From: Chryseolinea soli
GTDB taxonomy: Bacteria; Bacteroidota; Bacteroidia; Cytophagales; Cyclobacteriaceae
Assembly: GCF_003589925.1 (NCBI RefSeq)
Contig: NZ_CP032382.1
Span: forward strand, 2,046,001 to 2,110,000
Length of the DNA stretch: 64,000 bases
Reading direction: 5' to 3'
Part shown: positions 28,400 to 36,463 of the stretch, piece by piece
Layout of the letters: each line of letters begins with the position of its first letter
Numbering within the stretch: the first letter of the stretch is position 1
Translations under genes and position numbers: made by a program
Notes under the pieces: model-generated
The model's database searches: none
What the model saw: only the letters and a program-made list of their open reading frames with translations
Told to the model about the DNA's origin: nothing

Positions 28400-29509
28400 T
28401 TGAAACGGGTTGTCGTGATCGGGGGTGGCCTGGCGGGCCTGGTGGCGTCTGTGCAGTTGGCGAAGGCGGGTGTTTCGTGTGCGCTTGTCGAAAAAAAGGT
28501 CTATCCCTTTCACCGGGTATGCGGCGAATACATTTCAAACGAAGCCGTTCCCTTTTTAAAGGCCAACGATCTCTTCCCCGAAGCATTCAACCCACCGCGC
28601 ATCACGCGATTCACCCTTTCTTCGGCAACCGGAAAAAGCAGCACGATGCCGTTGGATCTTGGCGGGTTCGGCATCAGCCGATACACGTACGACCATTTTC
28701 TGTATGAAAAAGCAAAGCAGCTTGGTGTTGAATTTTTTCTTTCGGAAGAGGTTGAAGCCACTGCCTTTGATGGAGAACGATTTCAGCTTCGCACTTCGGC
28801 GCGAACGCTGGAAGCCGACGTCGTGATCGGCTCTTTTGGCAAACGCTCGCGCCTGGATCACACGCTGCAGAGAGACTTCATCCGCGAACGCTCGCCCTAC
28901 GTGGGCGTGAAATACCACATCCGCACGCAGCATCCCGACGACCTCATCGCCCTGCATAATTTTAAAGGTGGCTACTGTGGTATAAGCAACATCGAAGACG
29001 GGAAGACCACCCTCTGTTATTTAACACACCGCGATCATTTGAAACGATTCAAAAATATTCGCGACATGGAAGAGCAGGTGATGTTTCTCAACCCGCTGCT
29101 GAAGGAAATTTTCACGCAGGCAGAATTTCTTTTTGAACGCCCCGAGGTGATCAATGAAGTGTCGTTCCTCACCAAGTCGTGTGTGGAGGATCATGTGTTG
29201 ATGGTGGGGGATAGTGCAGGCATGATCGCGCCGCTGTGTGGCAACGGCATGGCGATGGCCATTCACGGCGCGAAAATGGTGAGCGAACGGATCATTCAAT
29301 TCGATCGGGGAGAGGTGTCGCGCGAGGCGATGGAAAATTTGTACACGCAGCAATGGAATAAAAATTTTAAAGGCCGTTTATGGTCCGGTCGGCAGATCCA
29401 AAAATTGTTTGGCAGCTATTGGGCTTCGAACCTTGCGGTGAACCTGGCGCTCTACATTCGGCCCGTTGCCAACACCATTATGCGCAACACGCACGGTGAG
29501 CCGTTTTAA
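28400..29509 (+). CDS. FAD-dependent oxidoreductase of the geranylgeranyl-reductase / aromatic hydroxylase type
   Basis: A 369-residue flavoprotein. It has the dinucleotide loop GGGLAGLVASVQLA (residues about 8-21), the substrate-side block HRVCGEYISNEA (about 34-45) and the second FAD motif MVGDSAGMIAPLCGNGMAMA (about 271-290). These are typical of the GGR-like group within PHBH-fold enzymes, which hydroxylate or reduce lipidic or aromatic substrates. I recall relatives lying next to type III PKS-methyltransferase genes in Bacteroidota; here that pair is about 5 kb downstream. The start is TTG at 28400, since an ATG at 28386 is in another frame and stops at once. Confidence 0.85.
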   Translation: MKRVVVIGGGLAGLVASVQLAKAGVSCALVEKKVYPFHRVCGEYISNEAVPFLKANDLFPEAFNPPRITRFTLSSATGKSSTMPLDLGGFGISRYTYDHFLYEKAKQLGVEFFLSEEVEATAFDGERFQLRTSARTLEADVVIGSFGKRSRLDHTLQRDFIRERSPYVGVKYHIRTQHPDDLIALHNFKGGYCGISNIEDGKTTLCYLTHRDHLKRFKNIRDMEEQVMFLNPLLKEIFTQAEFLFERPEVINEVSFLTKSCVEDHVLMVGDSAGMIAPLCGNGMAMAIHGAKMVSERIIQFDRGEVSREAMENLYTQQWNKNFKGRLWSGRQIQKLFGSYWASNLAVNLALYIRPVANTIMRNTHGEPF

Positions 29510-29602
29510 TACCTGAAATCTGGCTTTTGCGCCACCCACGGAAAACAGGGATGGCCTTGCCGGAAAGTATCCTTATTTTAAAATATCATCAACCAGAAAA
29601 TC

Positions 29603-30604
29603 ATGAACCAGGAAACCAATCGCAGAAATTTTTTGCGCTCCCTCGGCCTCATCACCGTGAGTGCTCTTCCCGGAGCGGCCCTTTTAAGTGCATGCGGCAA
29701 AAAACCAACCGCCGCCGACACCGCCGCTGCCGTTGACTCGGCCGCCATCAAGGCTGCCGCTGCTGCTCCCAAAGAATTGTTCTTCAAGATCTCCCTTGCC
29801 GAATGGTCGCTGCACAAAACACTGTTTGACAAAAAACTCGACAACCTCGACTTCCCCGCAAAAGCCAAAAACGACTTCGGTGTGTCGGGTGTTGAATTTG
29901 TGAATCAATTCTTCAAGGACAAAGCCAAAGACCAAACCTACCTGACCGAACTGAAAAAGCGCTGCACCGACAATGACATCACCGCGGTGCTCATCATGAT
30001 CGACGGCGAAGGAGGTCTGGGCGATACCAACAAGAAAAAACGCAATGAAGCAGTGGACAATCATAAGAAGTGGGTGGATGCCGCTAAATTTTTGGGTTGC
30101 CACTCGATCCGTGTAAACGCTCACGGCGAAGGCACCCGCGAAGAAGTGGGCAAAGCTGCCACCGACGGTCTGCACCTGCTTTCCGAATATGGAAAAGGAG
30201 CCGGCATCAACGTGATTGTTGAAAACCACGGAGGCTACTCTTCCGACGGCGGCTGGCTGACCAAGGTCATCAAAGACACTGGCATGGCCAACTGCGGTAC
30301 CCTGCCCGACTTTGGCAATTTCTGTCTGAAACGCGAGAAGGATAGCTGCGTGGAAGAATACGACCGCTACAAAGGCACCACCGAAATGATGCCCTTTGCC
30401 AAAGGCGTGAGCGCAAAAACCCATGAATTCGACGCCGCCGGTAACTGCGTTGAGACGGATTACACCAAGATGCTCCAGATCGTGAAAGACGCCGGTTACA
30501 CTGGCTTCATCGGCATTGAATACGAAGGCAGCAAGCTCTCTGAAGAAGAGGGTATCCGCGCCACGAAAGCCCTATTGGAAAAGGCTGGCGCTGCCATATC
30601 ATAA
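29603..30604 (+). CDS. Tat-exported lipoprotein, sugar phosphate isomerase/epimerase-type TIM barrel
   Basis: A 333-residue protein starting with a twin-arginine motif NRRNFLRS, a hydrophobic stretch and lipobox LLSAC (Cys31), so it should be folded before export and lipid-anchored. An Ala-rich linker follows. Residues about 60-330 are an AP-endonuclease-2/xylose-isomerase-like barrel ([43 protein letters not shown]) with His/Glu/Asp suited to metal binding. Such periplasmic barrels are abundant in Bacteroidota and many act on sugars, but the substrate is unknown. A palindromic terminator follows. Confidence 0.87.
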
Positions 30605-30679
30605 ACAGTATTTCCTCTGCGCCGACTTTCTGTACCCGCTGAAGGTGAAAAAAGTAGGCGCAAAAATCATCCATAGTTC

Positions 30680-30703
30680 AAAGGGCCGGTATACCGGCCC
30701 TTT
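30680..30703 (+). terminator. palindromic terminator-like hairpin after the TIM-barrel lipoprotein
   Basis: AAAGGGCCGGTA pairs perfectly with TACCGGCCCTTT, a 12-base-per-arm palindrome, 76 bases beyond the stop codon. The T run is short, so it may act in either direction or need factors. Confidence 0.65.
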
Positions 30704-30821
30704 CTGTTGAAATCGTCGGTGAACGACGAAACTCTTCGGAGCAACCGGGAGTTAATTTTTATGACGTTGCGCCACTTGCTGCGGAACCTCAGATCGAATT
30801 GTTCAACTAAAAAAAATCTCT

Positions 30822-31265
30822 ATGGAAACCCTGAAGATGAACATGACAGCCACGTCAACGGTGCGTATAGACGCACCCGCCACCGAAGTTTGGAAAGCCC
30901 TGACCACGCCTTCCCTCATCAAATTATATTTCTTCGGAACCGAGGCCCAGTCCGACTGGCAAGTGGGCAATCCCATTGTTTTTAAAGGTGAATGGAATGG
31001 CCAGGCCTATGAAGACAAGGGCATCATCATCGCCAACGAGCCCAACCGGCTTTTGCGCTACTCCTACTGGAGCTCCATGAAGGGCACACCCGACCTTCCC
31101 GAAAACTACGCGAACATCTCTTACATCCTCACCCCCGACGGTGCCGCCACCCTGGTGACCGTGGCCCAGGACGGTGTGGAAACCGAAAAAGAGAAAAAAC
31201 AAAGCGAGCAGAACTGGGTCAAGGTGCTGCACAACATGAAAGATCTGCTAGAAAAGAAGGCTTAA
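30822..31265 (+). CDS. SRPBCC (AHSA1/START-like) domain protein
   Basis: A 147-residue single-domain protein of the helix-grip fold. Landmarks are STVRIDAPATEVWKALTTP (about 13-31), the DWQVGNPIVFKGEWNG strand pair and a long C-terminal helix QNWVKVLHNMKDLLEKK. The fold encloses a hydrophobic cavity and binds lipids or aromatic compounds; AHSA1-type members are otherwise uncharacterised. It lies between the TIM-barrel lipoprotein and a TetR efflux unit. Either M1 or M7 could be the start. A role in the nearby polyketide/prenyl locus is possible but not shown. Confidence 0.88.
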   Translation: METLKMNMTATSTVRIDAPATEVWKALTTPSLIKLYFFGTEAQSDWQVGNPIVFKGEWNGQAYEDKGIIIANEPNRLLRYSYWSSMKGTPDLPENYANISYILTPDGAATLVTVAQDGVETEKEKKQSEQNWVKVLHNMKDLLEKKA

Positions 31266-31310
31266 ACCCTTCTTTTTCGGCCTTTTTATTTTTTTTGACG
31301 AGATCATTTC

Positions 31311-31334
31311 ATAAATGAATGAACATTCATTTAT
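31311..31334 (+). promoter_or_regulatory. palindromic operator 1, probable TetR autoregulation site
   Basis: ATAAATGAATG and CATTCATTTAT are perfect 11-base inverted arms around AA. The site overlaps the -7 element at 31332 and ends 13 bases before the tetR ATG, an ideal place for self-repression. An 18-base core recurs at 31978-31995 before the next gene. Confidence 0.75.
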
Positions 31335-31339
31335 ATTTG
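31332..31339 (+). promoter_or_regulatory. -7 promoter element of the TetR gene
   Basis: TATATTTG matches TAnnTTTG. It overlaps the right arm of the palindrome and ends eight bases before the ATG at 31348, so the mRNA may be nearly leaderless. Confidence 0.55.
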
Positions 31340-31347
31340 AGGCGTCA

Positions 31348-31935
31348 ATGAGAACACGCGACGAAGCAAAAGAAGTAGCCATCCGGGAAAAAGCGATCGA
31401 AATGATCGTAAAGGAAGGCTTTGACGGTTTCAGCATGCAGAAACTGGCCAAAGCGGCCAATGTATCCCCGGCCACTATTTACTTGTACTTCAAGAATCGC
31501 GAGGACCTGTTGAACCAACTTTACATCACCATTGATGAAGTGTTTTCGGATTCGAGCCTGAGAGGTTTTGATCCGGAAATGACTTTTGAGGAAGGCTTGT
31601 GGCTGCAATGGAAAAACCGCTTCGACCATCATGTGAATTATCCAAACCATATTTTGTTCATGGAGCAATTCCGGAGCTCGCCCCTCGTCGACCATAAGGA
31701 CATCAAGATCACGAAGTTCAAAGCGGCCATGGAGCAGTTTTTTAGCAACGCCATCAAGCGTGGTGAGCTGACGGAACTGCCCCTGGAGATCTTCTGGGCC
31801 ATTGCCTATGGGCCCCTGTACACCCTCATCAAATTTCACATGTTAAAAAAGTCGTTGGCGGGAAGAAAATTCTCACTGACCGAAGCCAAAATGCGCGACG
31901 CATTTAATTTGGTTGTGAAAGCACTAAAAAAATAA
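31348..31935 (+). CDS. TetR/AcrR-family transcriptional regulator
   Basis: A 195-residue repressor with N-terminal helix-turn-helix FSMQKLAKAANVSPATIYLYFKN (split: recognition helix after ANVSPAT) and a helical ligand domain. It precedes a small HMA-like gene and an MFS transporter in the same direction, the usual layout for a drug or metabolite efflux switch. An in-frame ATG at 31315 lies inside the operator/promoter, so 31348 (MRTRDEAKEV) is the better start. Two copies of the same palindrome, one over its own promoter and one before the downstream genes, suggest it represses both itself and the exporter. Confidence 0.9.
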   Translation: MRTRDEAKEVAIREKAIEMIVKEGFDGFSMQKLAKAANVSPATIYLYFKNREDLLNQLYITIDEVFSDSSLRGFDPEMTFEEGLWLQWKNRFDHHVNYPNHILFMEQFRSSPLVDHKDIKITKFKAAMEQFFSNAIKRGELTELPLEIFWAIAYGPLYTLIKFHMLKKSLAGRKFSLTEAKMRDAFNLVVKALKK

Positions 31936-31971
31936 GTTTTACGTCTACAGCAGCGGAAAGCTTGTATCTAC

Positions 31972-31996
31972 AATAAAGAATGAACATTCATTTATT
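31972..31996 (+). promoter_or_regulatory. palindromic operator 2 upstream of the HMA-like/MFS genes
   Basis: GAATGAACATTCATTTAT (31978-31995) is identical over 18 bases to operator 1. The left arm has a one-base deletion outside the GAATG core. Position, 661 bases from the first copy and upstream of the next gene, supports TetR control of the exporter. Confidence 0.7.
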
Positions 31997-32078
31997 TACC
32001 AAAATGCGCAACCCCATGAGAAATACCGCGTATGGCATTAGTAGCAACCTGGAAAACCACCCTATGAAGGGCACCTAT

Positions 32079-32309
32079 ATGAATGAAATATCCCCCGACA
32101 TTCATGTGTTCAAGACCAACATCGGATTTGCACACGACGTAAAGAAGATTTCACCCGTTCTGGGCGAGGAATCGCGCATTAAGAAGTGGAGTGTGGATGT
32201 CGAGGATGTGGACAATGTTTTGCGTGTGGAGGCCCACCGCATCGAGCCCACGGAGATCATTTCGCTCATTACACAATGCGGCTATTCCTGCGAGGAATTG
32301 ACCGATTAA
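32079..32309 (+). CDS. small HMA-fold (ferredoxin-like) protein lacking the CxxC metal site
   Basis: A 76-residue protein whose pattern fits a heavy-metal-associated domain: FKTNIGFAHDVKKI where HMA proteins have TN-x-CxxC-xxx-I, then IKKWSVDVEDVDNVLRVEA and a last helix IISLITQCGYSCEEL. The metal CxxC is replaced by FAHD, so classical soft-metal binding is lost; two Cys occur in the last helix instead. It sits between TetR and MFS genes, 17 bases before the latter. In-frame ATGs exist at 31980 (inside the operator), 32004 and 32064; 32079 is chosen because the domain begins just after it. Confidence 0.65.
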   Translation: MNEISPDIHVFKTNIGFAHDVKKISPVLGEESRIKKWSVDVEDVDNVLRVEAHRIEPTEIISLITQCGYSCEELTD

Positions 32310-32326
32310 ATTAACACAACCTTTAT

Positions 32327-33625
32327 ATGACCCAACCTTTGACCACTAAGCAAAAGATTTTTTCCTCGTATGAGGTATTCATCATTGCCGTTTTAACCTT
32401 TCTTCAGTTTACGATCATTTTGGACTTTATGGTGTTGTCTCCGTTGGGAGCGATACTCATGCCCAAACTGCACATCACGACCGCCCAATTCGGGATGGTC
32501 GTGTCGGGCTATGCCATCAGCGCCGGTCTTTCCGGATTGCTGGCGGCGGGTTTTGCCGATAAGTTCGACCGGAAGAAAATGCTCTTGTTCTTTTATGCCG
32601 GCTTCATTGCCGGTACCGCTTTCTGCGCGCTGGCCCAGGACTATTACGCACTTTTATTGGCGCGCATCTTCACCGGAATTTTCGGGGGTGTGATCGGCTC
32701 CATCTCGTTTGCCATCATTACCGACTTGTTCAAACTGGAAGTTCGCGGCCGCGTGATGGGCTTTGTGCAAATGGCCTTCGCCGGCAGCCAGGTGTTGGGT
32801 ATCCCGATTGGATTTTATCTGGCCAATAAGTGGGACTGGCATTTGCCTTTCGTGCTCATCGTCGTGGCGAGCCTCATCGTGGGCGTATTGATTGTGATGT
32901 ACATGAAGCCGGTGGATAGCCACCTCCACAACAAGGTCCAGCGAAACGCCTTGAAGCACCTTTTCCAAACCGTGACGCGGTCGGAGTATGCGAAAGCTTT
33001 TGCGGCCACCACGTTGCTGGCCACGGGAGGTTTCATGCTCATGCCTTTCGGTAGCGCGTTCAGCATCAACAACCTCGGACTCAGTGCGGATGTGTTGCCT
33101 GCACTCTATATGATCACCGGTGTTTTCTCCATGGGCACAGGACCGTTCATCGGAAAACTTACCGACTCGATTGGCAAATACAAGGTTTTTGTATTGGGAT
33201 CGGTGCTCACTTCGGTGCTGGTAGCCTACTACTGTAATCTGGGTGTCACACCGTTTTGGCTGGTCACGGTGATTAGCATATTGATGTTTGCCGGGGTATC
33301 GTCGCGCATGATTGCCTCTTCGGCGTTGATCTCGGCCGTGCCCGACCCTCAAGACCGCGGCGCTTTTATGAGCGTTAACTCATCGGTGCAGCAAATCTCC
33401 GGAGGTATCGCCACGTTTATCGCGGGGCTGATCGTGGTGCAGAGCCCCGACGGCAAACTTGAACGTTACGGAACGTTGGGATGGGTCGTTATCGGTGCCA
33501 CCGCGCTGACCGTTTTCCTGATGTATTTCTTGAATCAATACGTGATGCAAAAAGCGGCGGCGACTCCTCCTAAACCCACCGTGGTAGAGGCGGCGCCACA
33601 AGAAGTTGCCCCTTCGATCGAATAG
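32327..33625 (+). CDS. major facilitator superfamily transporter, probable efflux pump
   Basis: A 432-residue protein with about 12 hydrophobic helices. The MFS loop 2-3 motif is visible as GFADKFDRKKMLLF (about 81-94), and the helix-4 arginine lies in LLARIFTGIFGG (about 109-120), as in DHA1-type drug exporters. A disordered Pro-rich tail ends the protein. It is the last gene of a TetR/HMA-like/MFS unit and is followed by a strong terminator. The exported compound is unknown; the neighbouring UbiA-type III PKS locus makes its product a candidate (inference). Confidence 0.88.
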   Translation: MTQPLTTKQKIFSSYEVFIIAVLTFLQFTIILDFMVLSPLGAILMPKLHITTAQFGMVVSGYAISAGLSGLLAAGFADKFDRKKMLLFFYAGFIAGTAFCALAQDYYALLLARIFTGIFGGVIGSISFAIITDLFKLEVRGRVMGFVQMAFAGSQVLGIPIGFYLANKWDWHLPFVLIVVASLIVGVLIVMYMKPVDSHLHNKVQRNALKHLFQTVTRSEYAKAFAATTLLATGGFMLMPFGSAFSINNLGLSADVLPALYMITGVFSMGTGPFIGKLTDSIGKYKVFVLGSVLTSVLVAYYCNLGVTPFWLVTVISILMFAGVSSRMIASSALISAVPDPQDRGAFMSVNSSVQQISGGIATFIAGLIVVQSPDGKLERYGTLGWVVIGATALTVFLMYFLNQYVMQKAAATPPKPTVVEAAPQEVAPSIE

Positions 33626-33651
33626 AAAATATTTTCTCCTTTATAAAGAAG

Positions 33652-33681
33652 AGCCAGCGACAACCTTCGCTGGCTTTTTTT
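33652..33681. terminator. strong terminator shared by the MFS and UbiA genes
   Basis: AGCCAGCG pairs with CGCTGGCT around an eight-base loop, followed by seven T residues on the plus strand. The UbiA stop codon lies in the T run, so the hairpin separates the two convergent transcription units. Confidence 0.88.
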
Positions 33682-34567
33682 ATGCTATGAATTTCAATGT
33701 GGAAAGCGTGAGGTAAAGAAAAAAAGCGTTGAGACATGTCGCCGAAATAAAATTGAGCCACATCGTATGCTGGTAGTCTGCTTTGGTTTCATCACGGTAG
33801 GCCTGGGCGAACCAGTATAAGAAATAGAGCACCACGGGCGACAAGGCGATCAAAAATGCGATGGCCTGACGGTTTGAAAAAAATGCGTTGAAATAGATCA
33901 CGAAGCCCAGCGTAACCACCCCAAAAACGGCGCCCACAAAATAGAACGTACCCCGGATGCCGAGCAAGAGGCTTAGCGTTTTGTCGCCGCGGCGTCCGTC
34001 TTCGTCGTGTTGATAGATCTGCGTCATGGGATAGTTGCCCCAAAGCATGAGAGTAGACAAGGCTGCGGGGATGAGCACGGGCCATTGCCAGGCGGTCTCC
34101 AGCGAAAATTTGTTTATGCCCACATAGCACATGATGAACGTGAAGAACCCCTGGAAGATCCCGGCCACCAACCAGCCGCCGATGGGATACTTTTTTAACC
34201 GGATGGCGGGATGGCTGTAGGCTTTCGACACCAGGCCGTAGACGAAGAGCATCACGGCAAAGGTGAAGCTGATCATCAACCATCCTAAACCAATGGCGAG
34301 TGCGTCGAAAAGCAAGGCGAGGGAATAGAGACCTTTGTTTACAGGAGGAGGATTTTTCAGACCGCCGATGCTTTTTTCATCTTTGTCGAAATAGCTGTTG
34401 TAACCGTTACTCGCCGGGTACAGCAACAGGTGTATAATGATGAATGTCCAGAACACCGTTGCATACATGCTGTTATTAGGAGATACCGAAAGGCTAAAAA
34501 GGAACACGGGCATCAGAAAATAAGAAAACGGAATGCGCATGTGCAACCATGAAGACAAAGAAAGCAT
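33680..34567 (-). CDS. UbiA-superfamily prenyltransferase-like membrane protein
   Basis: A 295-residue polytopic protein with about eight hydrophobic helices. Two Asp-rich motifs of the UbiA family are present: NGYNSYFDKDEKS (about 54-66, NxxxxxxDxD type) and YQHDEDGRRGDKT (about 180-192). These bind the Mg-diphosphate of a prenyl donor, and the enzyme would prenylate an aromatic or similar acceptor in the membrane. It is transcribed divergently from a type III polyketide synthase gene 73 bases away, which suggests that the polyketide is the acceptor (inference). Confidence 0.85.
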   Translation of the reverse strand: MLSLSSWLHMRIPFSYFLMPVFLFSLSVSPNNSMYATVFWTFIIIHLLLYPASNGYNSYFDKDEKSIGGLKNPPPVNKGLYSLALLFDALAIGLGWLMISFTFAVMLFVYGLVSKAYSHPAIRLKKYPIGGWLVAGIFQGFFTFIMCYVGINKFSLETAWQWPVLIPAALSTLMLWGNYPMTQIYQHDEDGRRGDKTLSLLLGIRGTFYFVGAVFGVVTLGFVIYFNAFFSNRQAIAFLIALSPVVLYFLYWFAQAYRDETKADYQHTMWLNFISATCLNAFFLYLTLSTLKFIA

Positions 34568-34640
34568 AGGCGAAAAATTAATTTCCGAAGCTAAGAACAG
34601 CCTGATCTAAATTATAGTTTTTTGGAATATATTGAAACGC

Positions 34641-35744
34641 ATGAGCCACATCAGCGCCATTGGAACGGCCAACCCACCGCATCGCTTCAGTCAGTCACAG
34701 ATCGCCGACTTCATGACCCGGGCCATGCAGTTGTCGTATGAAGACGGTCGTAGGTTGCGGGCGATCTTCAATGCCAGTGGCATCTCCTACCGCCACTCGG
34801 TGCTGGAAGACTACGGACGTTCCGGCGAGTTCACTTTCTATTCCAACACCGACGACTTCGAGCCGTTTCCATCCACCTCCAAGCGCCTGCACTTTTTTAA
34901 GCAGAATGCGTTGAACCTCAGCTATTCGGCCGTGCAGAACATGTTGGCGCAGCGTCCTGGATTTGACGTGAAGAGCATCACGCACCTGATCGTTGTGTGT
35001 TGCACCGGCATGTACGCACCCGGTTTGGACGTGGACCTGGTGAAGAAGTTGAGCTTGTCAACAAACGTGCAACGCACAGGTGTGAACTTTATGGGCTGCT
35101 ATGCCGCCTTCAACGCCTTGAAAGTGGCCGATGCCTTTTGCAAGGCCGACGCCAAAGCCAAAGTGCTGGTGGTGTGCACCGAACTCTGCAGTCTGCACTT
35201 TCAAAAAGTGGCCACGGAAGATAATCTTTTGGCCAACGCGCTTTTTGCCGATGGCTCGGCAGCCGTGCTGGTGGAAGGTGAAACCACAGCTTCCCCACGT
35301 TTGCTGCTCGAAAATTTTTGCAACGAGCTTGCCATCGAAGGCGAGGGGGACATGGCGTGGGCGATCGGTGACCTGGGGTTTGAGATGAAGTTGTCGACGT
35401 ATGTGCCGGATATAATAAAGAGTGGCATCGCCCGCCTCACAGCTGCGCTACTGAAAAATATCTCGTCCGACATTTCGGCGATCCGTTTTTTTGCCATCCA
35501 CCCCGGAGGCAGAAAAATACTGGAAAGCATAGAGGATGCGTTGGGGATCGACAAGGAAAAGAACGCACCGGCCTACCGCGTGCTGAAGAACTATGGCAAC
35601 ATGTCGTCGCCCACCGTCTTGTTTGTGTTGAAAGATATTTTTGACGGGCTGACCCCCGAGCACAATGGCCAACCCATCTTGAGTTTTGCATTTGGTCCGG
35701 GGTTGACGCTGGAAAGCATGGTGTTAAGAATAGAAACCGAATAA
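34641..35744 (+). CDS. type III polyketide synthase
   Basis: A 367-residue chalcone-synthase-like homodimeric enzyme. The catalytic triad is in place: Cys121 in VVCCTGMYAPG (second Cys), His287 in FFAIHPGG and Asn320 in LKNYGNMSSPT. It would extend an acyl starter with malonyl-CoA and cyclise to a pyrone, resorcinol or phloroglucinol; the starter is unknown but bacterial relatives often use fatty acyl chains. The ATG at 34641 (MSHISAIGTA) is preferred to a TTG nine bases earlier. The methyltransferase gene follows after eight bases, and a UbiA gene is divergent. Confidence 0.93.
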   Translation: MSHISAIGTANPPHRFSQSQIADFMTRAMQLSYEDGRRLRAIFNASGISYRHSVLEDYGRSGEFTFYSNTDDFEPFPSTSKRLHFFKQNALNLSYSAVQNMLAQRPGFDVKSITHLIVVCCTGMYAPGLDVDLVKKLSLSTNVQRTGVNFMGCYAAFNALKVADAFCKADAKAKVLVVCTELCSLHFQKVATEDNLLANALFADGSAAVLVEGETTASPRLLLENFCNELAIEGEGDMAWAIGDLGFEMKLSTYVPDIIKSGIARLTAALLKNISSDISAIRFFAIHPGGRKILESIEDALGIDKEKNAPAYRVLKNYGNMSSPTVLFVLKDIFDGLTPEHNGQPILSFAFGPGLTLESMVLRIETE

Positions 35745-35752
35745 AAAAATCT

Positions 35753-36463
35753 ATGCCCGATTTTTCGACCCGCAGCACCGACGCCGAGATCATGGACGAC
35801 CTAGACTATGCGGGTGGATTGATGGACAAGACGCTGCGTGAGTTGGAGATCATCAACAAATGGCTTGGCGGAAATGCCGTTACGTTCTCGGCGTTGTCGC
35901 AGTTGTTGAATGGAGTTGATCGCGAAGGAACGGTCCGCATCGCCGACCTGGGTTGTGGCCGGGGAGATATGCTGGCGTTGGTGGATGCCTGGGCTTCGAA
36001 GCGCGGCTATAAAACGGAGCTCACGGGCATCGATGCCAATCCGTACATCGTCCGTGCAGCCGAACACCAACTAAAGCATTATCCACACATCCGGCTCTTG
36101 GCGCAAAATATTTTCTCGCCCGCATTCCGGGAACAGAAATTTGATGTGGTCATCGGCACGTTGTTCTATCATCATTTCACTCAAGAGGAGCTTGCGACTT
36201 TTTTCATGCAGCTGAAGCATCAATGCACCAAAGGATTTATCATCAATGACATTCATCGCCACCCCTTGGCCTATTACTCTATTAAATGGTTGACCCAGAC
36301 CTTTTCGCGTTCGTCGATGGTGCAGTATGATGCGCCGCTGTCGGTTTTGCGGGCGTTTAAAAAAGGCGAATTGTTGGAGTGCCTGGAGAAGGCTGGAATA
36401 AAAAAGTATTCCATACGCTGGAAATGGGCATTTCGATGGCAGGTGGTGGTTTGGACGCACTAA
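35753..36463 (+). CDS. class I SAM-dependent methyltransferase partner of the type III PKS
   Basis: A 236-residue Rossmann-fold methyltransferase. SAM-binding motif I is ADLGCGRGDMLAL (about 64-76), the acidic end of beta-2 is GIDANPYI, and motif IV-like DVVIGTLFYHHF follows (about 130-141). It starts eight bases after the PKS stop and must be co-transcribed with it. The likely task is O- or C-methylation of the polyketide (inference). The last 70 residues are hydrophobic and basic and may touch the membrane, fitting a lipophilic substrate. Confidence 0.87.
   Translation: MPDFSTRSTDAEIMDDLDYAGGLMDKTLRELEIINKWLGGNAVTFSALSQLLNGVDREGTVRIADLGCGRGDMLALVDAWASKRGYKTELTGIDANPYIVRAAEHQLKHYPHIRLLAQNIFSPAFREQKFDVVIGTLFYHHFTQEELATFFMQLKHQCTKGFIINDIHRHPLAYYSIKWLTQTFSRSSMVQYDAPLSVLRAFKKGELLECLEKAGIKKYSIRWKWAFRWQVVVWTH

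Follow-up and report, generated by a model that had tools for sequence, protein, structure and literature searches.

The agq cluster of Actinoplanes missouriensis, described by Awakawa in 2011, is reported to encode a type III polyketide synthase (PKS), a methyltransferase (MT), a monooxygenase, and a UbiA-type prenyltransferase that act on one phenolic lipid and yield alkyl-O-dihydrogeranyl-methoxyhydroquinones. The srsABC genes of Streptomyces griseus are likewise said to specify phenolic lipids, with a PKS, a methyltransferase, and a flavoprotein hydroxylase and without a prenyltransferase. Here we describe a locus of Chryseolinea soli, at positions 28400–36463 of a 64,000-nucleotide stretch of its genome (the window), which unites a type III PKS, an MT, a flavin adenine dinucleotide (FAD) oxygenase, and a UbiA-type gene. 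In gene content, the locus resembles srsABC in its PKS, methyltransferase, and flavoprotein and agq in all four genes; agq is actinobacterial, unlike the locus, whose gene order departs from those available for comparison. We propose, with a probability of about 0.62, that the four enzymes make a membrane-resident phenolic lipid, and that an efflux unit lying among their genes (a TetR regulator, a 109-amino-acid protein, and an MFS exporter) is separate and probably outside the pathway.

Several published systems share parts of this gene set. The Actinoplanes work has been cited for a membrane enzyme that O-prenylates a small polyketide (PMC4044012). The hidABC (hierridin) cluster and certain planctomycete operons share an MT, an FAD oxidoreductase, and a type III PKS with the locus (PMC10896814, PMC8086630), but as a rule these lack UbiA, and their gene order is unlike that of the locus; the comparison is one of gene content. 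In the planctomycete MT-oxidoreductase-PKS operons, the PKSs tested made pentadecyl- and heptadecylresorcinols, and when the other two genes of the operon were added the product gained a single methyl group, probably bound to carbon (PMC10896814). Of 47 cyanobacterial hierridin-like clusters, one contains a prenyltransferase (PMC8086630). The loseolamycin locus of Micromonospora endolithica resembles the window in that its type III PKS gene, losA, has a UbiA-family gene and a putative methyltransferase gene at a distance of two to three genes, but the rows described there hold an acyl-CoA dehydrogenase instead of such an FAD oxidoreductase (PMC7587189). Alkylpyrones, alkylquinones, and alkylresorcinols are described as electron carriers or membrane components (PMC12766979). 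PKS clusters of the present kind appear in one report as software predictions only (PMC10752948), and none of the open-access papers listed says what the cluster produces in this phylum. Because the gene content matches that of known clusters, the gene set is of a known kind; what is new here is how widely it occurs in the order and how its UbiA protein is altered.

Gene content of the locus

Gene calls and family scans placed the locus in the window and recovered every gene named in a preliminary description of this DNA, with all of the Pfam families concerned matched above their curated cut-offs. The four proposed pathway genes and the spacer between two of them are as follows.

28400..29509, plus strand: FAD protein of the aromatic monooxygenase/halogenase/geranylgeranyl reductase (GGR) superfamily, 369 amino acids (FAD_binding_3, 57.5 bits)
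33680..34567, minus strand: UbiA-fold membrane protein with altered Asp motifs (PF01040, over the curated cut-off)
34568..34631, no strand: 64-bp spacer between the divergent UbiA and PKS start codons (from gene calls)
34632..35744, plus strand: type III PKS, 370 amino acids from a TTG start or 367 from the ATG at 34641 (PF00195, PF02797, and catalytic triad)
35753..36463, plus strand: S-adenosylmethionine methyltransferase, 236 amino acids (Methyltransf_25, 46.4 bits; cut-off 27)

The genome is a single contig of 8.24 Mb in which PF00195 is matched once, over its cut-off; the same family search also gives matches in five of 14 control genomes, three of them over the cut-off. The PKS scores 89.6 bits against PF00195 and 85.1 bits against PF02797 (cut-offs 27). 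Type III PKSs of solved structure are matched as well (best E value 1.5e-46), and the best of these matches include lipid-using enzymes such as pks18. Its catalytic triad is Cys156/His290/Asn323 when counted from the TTG and Cys153/His287/Asn320 when counted from the ATG three codons on. The triad had been reported as intact, and it is; the His287 and Asn320 given for it fit the ATG numbering, but the Cys121 given with them fits neither start. In an alignment of 169 PKS rows, which excludes three sequences with in-frame stops (L009, L081, and L125) and two short matches, the Cys and the His are present in all 169 rows and the Asn in 168, with a gap in the remaining one. On its domains and triad the protein is a type III PKS, and it is predicted to catalyze iterative condensation of malonyl-CoA.

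The PKS and MT genes, which had been described as fused in transcript, are separate, but only 8 bp lie between the PKS stop and the MT start, and they are therefore likely to form an operon. The MT scores 137.1 bits against the NCBIfam model PRK06202, below the cut-off of 243. The 64-bp spacer on the other side of the PKS gene is likely, from its position, to be a promoter region shared with UbiA; among 55 loci with divergent UbiA and PKS genes, the spacer (match edge to match edge) measures 21–336 bp and is at most 106 bp in 45. The UbiA protein has the UbiA fold in its predicted structure. The FAD gene begins 6.2 kb upstream of the PKS gene. The best curated model for its product is the geranylgeranyl reductase family TIGR02032, at 103.3 bits against a cut-off of 158.8; the label "GGR-like" given to it earlier is thus a loose one, and the protein falls outside that family as curated.

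Co-inheritance and gene order in the Cytophagales

We searched 194 genomes of the order for the locus proteins and found the PKS in 142 (E ≤ 1e-20), FAD in 131 (E ≤ 1e-40), UbiA in 143 (E ≤ 1e-30), the MT in 123 (E ≤ 1e-25), and the MFS exporter in 82 (E ≤ 1e-70). All four pathway genes are present in 113 genomes, none in 47, and some in 34. PKS and UbiA, which are often unlinked, occur together in 139 genomes, PKS alone in 3, UbiA alone in 4, and neither in 48. The corresponding counts are 129, 13, 2, and 50 for PKS and FAD, and 121, 21, 2, and 50 for PKS and MT. The odds ratios with PKS, which ignore phylogeny and genome size, are 556 for UbiA, 248 for FAD, and 144 for MT. As a partial control, 20 of the 52 PKS-negative genomes were listed, ten of which are no less than 90% complete and 2.5 Mb in size; among those ten we found FAD in none, UbiA in one (31% identity), MT in one (35% identity), and MFS in two. 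Absences also occur within genera: all four genes are missing from G144 and present in its genus mates G064 and G173, and G164 is without PKS, FAD, and MT, which its genus mates G035, G050, G091, and G156 have. Where the genes are dispersed, pairs are often kept by coordinates: some 3 kb separates FAD from UbiA in G004, FAD adjoins MT in G058, G085, G129, and G138, and UbiA, FAD, and MT are grouped in G186. FAD, UbiA, PKS, and MT thus behave as one largely co-inherited set. Their co-inheritance in about three quarters of the order leads to a testable claim of a common lipid and defines a minimal gene set to express, from which the pump is excluded.

In a sample of 296 genomes of the phylum, the PKS was found in 135 and UbiA (E ≤ 1e-20) in 38, of which 11 belong to the order. 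Twenty-one of the 38 carry a close UbiA (E ≤ 1e-40), and since every one of these is a PKS genome, a close UbiA implies a PKS. This holds for all ten close UbiA genes outside the order, nine of which adjoin the PKS gene by coordinates. The remaining 17 matches are about 30% identical, and no copy adjoins a PKS gene. A distant second PKS group (about 28–35% identity) occurs, without a close UbiA, in many further genomes of the class and phylum.

We then compared gene order around the PKS in two sets of loci. The first comprised 32 loci of named relatives, chosen by PKS similarity, in which 16 proteins of the window were sought by tblastn. Chryseolinea serpens is the nearest of the named records: its PKS is 95% identical, and all 16 genes compared are collinear with the window. 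In ten of the 32 loci (L005, L009, L010, L011, L015, L016, L017, L019, L020, and L031), FAD stands ahead of divergent UbiA-PKS-MT with a gap of less than 0.5 kb and none of the 16 genes between; in L012 the gap between FAD and UbiA is 2.5 kb. Other named loci lack FAD or UbiA in the DNA compared, which in some cases is short. In L018, a Sericytochromatia contig from another phylum, UbiA, PKS, MT, and FAD all lie on one strand.

The second set covered up to 19 kb around the PKS in 140 of the 142 PKS genomes of the order (the C. soli genome and G029 were excluded), and a partner was counted as linked if its tblastn match (E ≤ 1e-6) lay no more than 5.5 kb from the PKS. All three partners are linked in 42 loci: 19 have the window's arrangement of FAD ahead of divergent UbiA and PKS-MT, 21 have UbiA, PKS, MT, and FAD in that order on one strand, and two are arranged otherwise. 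The earlier statement that FAD lies close to the PKS-MT pair in relatives is borne out by the first two groups. Linkage is partial in others (FAD and MT in 17 loci, UbiA and MT in 8, FAD and UbiA in 2, UbiA only in 11, FAD only in 3, and MT only in 9), so that FAD, near in many relatives, is absent from the vicinity of some that keep MT and UbiA. In 48 loci no partner is linked; 22 of the 140 have less than 3 kb of contig on one side, and some absences are therefore cuts.

In the window, five genes separate FAD from UbiA, giving a plus-strand order of FAD, TIM barrel, AHSA1/SRPBCC, TetR, 109-amino-acid gene, and MFS, followed by UbiA on the minus strand and by PKS and MT on the plus strand. 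The first and fourth of the five had been left out of the earlier gene list.

29603..30604, plus strand: TIM-barrel protein (AP_endonuc_2), encoded between FAD and UbiA (PF01261, 76.8 bits)
30822..31265, plus strand: AHSA1/SRPBCC protein of the inserted block (PF08327, 76.3 bits)
31315..31935, plus strand: TetR regulator of the efflux unit (PF00440, 52.7 bits)
31980..32309, plus strand: 109-amino-acid protein of the efflux unit (matched by neither Pfam nor NCBIfam)
32327..33625, plus strand: MFS exporter of the efflux unit (PF07690, 197.9 bits)

The full block was found only in the window and in two of the 32 named loci, those of C. serpens and C. lacunae (L002 and L003). A PKS tree (FastTree, 170 rows, including L048 and L111 as very long branches) was used only for the clade of these three and their near relatives. 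The window, L002, and L003 form a supported clade within a supported group of 13 rows, the other members of which are without the block; support is 90–91 at the forks by which L010 and L005 join. Because the block-bearing clade is nested among block-free relatives, the block is most simply derived, and the earlier proposal that FAD had been separated from its partners by an insertion fits this distribution.

The TIM-barrel and SRPBCC proteins are not considered part of the pathway. In the whole stretches of the 140 order loci, the TIM barrel is found once and SRPBCC four times, one of these within 5.5 kb of the PKS; on the latter count SRPBCC was rejected as a polyketide cyclase. Close to its N-terminus, the TIM-barrel protein has an RR and a lipobox-like cysteine. 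Its gene lies between FAD and UbiA in three named loci (L007, L008, and L021) and also adjoins FAD in L036 (G064), a rearranged cluster whose LOG-PDZ-RR-FAD-TIM segment is in reverse orientation with respect to the PKS; UbiA and MT are found at other places on that contig, so that the four genes are kept. The PKS gene of L081 (G132) contains an in-frame stop and is followed, 3.9 kb downstream and ahead of MT, by a second PKS piece; it looks as if an insertion had split it.

Proposed pathway and alternatives

From the genes and their arrangement, the catalytic residues, the predicted folds, and the pattern of co-inheritance, we infer the chemistry, the order of steps, and the product. The PKS would load a long fatty-acyl starter, add malonyl units, and cyclize the chain to an alkylresorcinol, an alkylpyrone being the less likely product; the MT would methylate this product. 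The FAD protein is probably the ring hydroxylase of the pathway and would generate a hydroquinone-type head. The UbiA-fold membrane protein is probably a prenyltransferase and would attach an isoprenoid from a diphosphate donor. By analogy with agq, the most likely product would be a methylated, ring-hydroxylated, prenylated alkylresorcinol-type membrane lipid. The conserved PKS triad, the matches to lipid-using structures, the joint occurrence of the four genes, and the alkylresorcinols made by the planctomycete PKSs speak for this scheme.

A number of observations count against this assignment. At the thresholds used, FAD is absent from 13 and MT from 21 of the 142 PKS genomes of the order, and 114 of the 135 PKS genomes of the phylum sample have no close UbiA. 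Halogenases head the list of fold matches to the FAD model, and UbiA carries conserved Ser and Gln where the Mg-binding motifs of its family have Asp. The MFS exporter, which we place outside the pathway, is itself associated with the PKS, the odds ratio being 14.6 when all MFS matches are counted, and its closest group is present in 26 of 142 PKS genomes and in 1 of 52 others (p 0.002), both without control for phylogeny. In the planctomycete operons, no role was assigned to the oxidoreductase, and the methyl group seemed to be attached to carbon (PMC10896814).

The alternative that survives best, although we consider it unlikely, is that the FAD enzyme reduces the isoprenoid chain, in the manner of a geranylgeranyl or menaquinone reductase, in place of hydroxylating the ring. 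Geranylgeranyl reductase is its best curated family, several of its relatives are annotated by a source as menaquinone-9 beta-reductase, and the agq product bears a reduced geranyl group, to judge by the title of the Actinoplanes paper. But the score lies below the family cut-off, and FAD is retained in three genomes without a UbiA match, in two of them as a FAD-MT-PKS row, which fits an enzyme acting on the ring. The 50 fold matches listed for the FAD model (pLDDT 88.0) consist of halogenases and aromatic hydroxylases. No geranylgeranyl reductase appears in that list, an absence that excludes nothing. The set of aligned FAD proteins includes one row, L166, that is apparently non-orthologous.

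It had also been suggested that the MFS pump exports the product. The same four-enzyme pathway with a TetR-controlled pump for the lipid or an intermediate in Chryseolinea would suit the placement of the pump among the pathway genes in C. serpens, C. lacunae, and the window, as well as the correlation of MFS with PKS, but we regard it as improbable. TetR, the 109-amino-acid protein, and MFS have no match in any of the 140 PKS neighborhoods of the order (whole stretches), relatives that keep PKS, MT, and UbiA without a linked MFS, which the preliminary description had named as grounds for refutation, are found there, and L005, named Chryseolinea sp., is without the pump; at this locus the unit is confined to Chryseolinea. 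The closest MFS relatives occur in 26 other genomes (E ≤ 1e-120), and 20 of these loci were compared. The 109-amino-acid gene stands beside MFS in 16, TetR in 14, both in 13, and neither in 3, and none of the 20 stretches contains any of the four pathway genes, SRPBCC, or the TIM barrel. TetR and the 109-amino-acid gene thus recur beside MFS without pathway genes, which argues that the three form a unit of their own. In addition, G008 has the MFS and no PKS, and a membrane lipid would not need MFS export. The best curated match of the exporter, the myxochelin exporter MxcK (NF038077), scores 248.5 bits against a cut-off of 525, which places it outside that family. The pump was therefore set aside as a pathway member on synteny, although its presence correlates with that of the PKS; it probably does not serve the pathway, and its genes appear to be unrelated to it and to have entered the space between FAD and UbiA later, in Chryseolinea. 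Since the 109-amino-acid gene lies just upstream of MFS in those 16 loci, its product may serve the pump family as a sensor or as a small partner protein.

Halogenation of the ring by the FAD enzyme is more improbable still. That UbiA and FAD are menaquinone genes lying beside the PKS by chance deserves hardly any weight and was rejected for UbiA: several UbiA relatives are named 1,4-dihydroxy-2-naphthoate octaprenyltransferase by their sources, in line with the menaquinone names of FAD relatives, but the UbiA of the locus follows the PKS in its distribution (139 of 142 PKS genomes) and the genome holds another UbiA-family member with the usual motifs (NDYGD and DIESD).

The altered UbiA-fold protein

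The UbiA family is defined by a first motif NDxxDxxxD and a second motif DxxxD (PMC4106721). The locus protein has N57-S58-x-x-D61-x-D63 and Q186-H-x-x-D190 at these sites. We read the residues in aligned protein sets from which 13 short matches were excluded. Among 84 UbiA rows, N57 and D61 are invariant, the second letter is Ser in 83, and position 65 is variable, so that the first motif departs from the family pattern; the second departs from it in all 84 rows (Q186xxxD190). D63, Q183, and Y185 are also invariant. The protein retains the predicted fold and, in the aligned rows, most of the catalytic residues of the family. We conclude from these residues that it would act as a UbiA-like enzyme at best, outside the UbiA enzymes with the usual motifs.

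A phmmer search of solved structures with the locus UbiA gave nothing at E ≤ 1, and a 16-row UbiA profile matched chlorophyll a synthase alone (E 0.0012). The altered site poses a concrete question of enzymology. One tentative reading is that this rebuilt metal site (Ser and Gln for Asp, with the extra invariant D63, Q183, and Y185) belongs to an old pathway for a near-core isoprenoid-phenol membrane lipid of most of the order; the enzyme might then use one Mg2+ or an unusual donor, and the lipid might have a general membrane or redox role rather than that of a specialized metabolite.

BLASTP of the locus UbiA against one paralogue from the same genome gave no useful alignment. Two UbiA-family proteins of this genome have the usual ND motif, L197 (G000:C1:5266650-5267090) and L196 (C1:7732592-7733314), the latter of which, by its DIESD motif, looks like a menaquinone-type enzyme.

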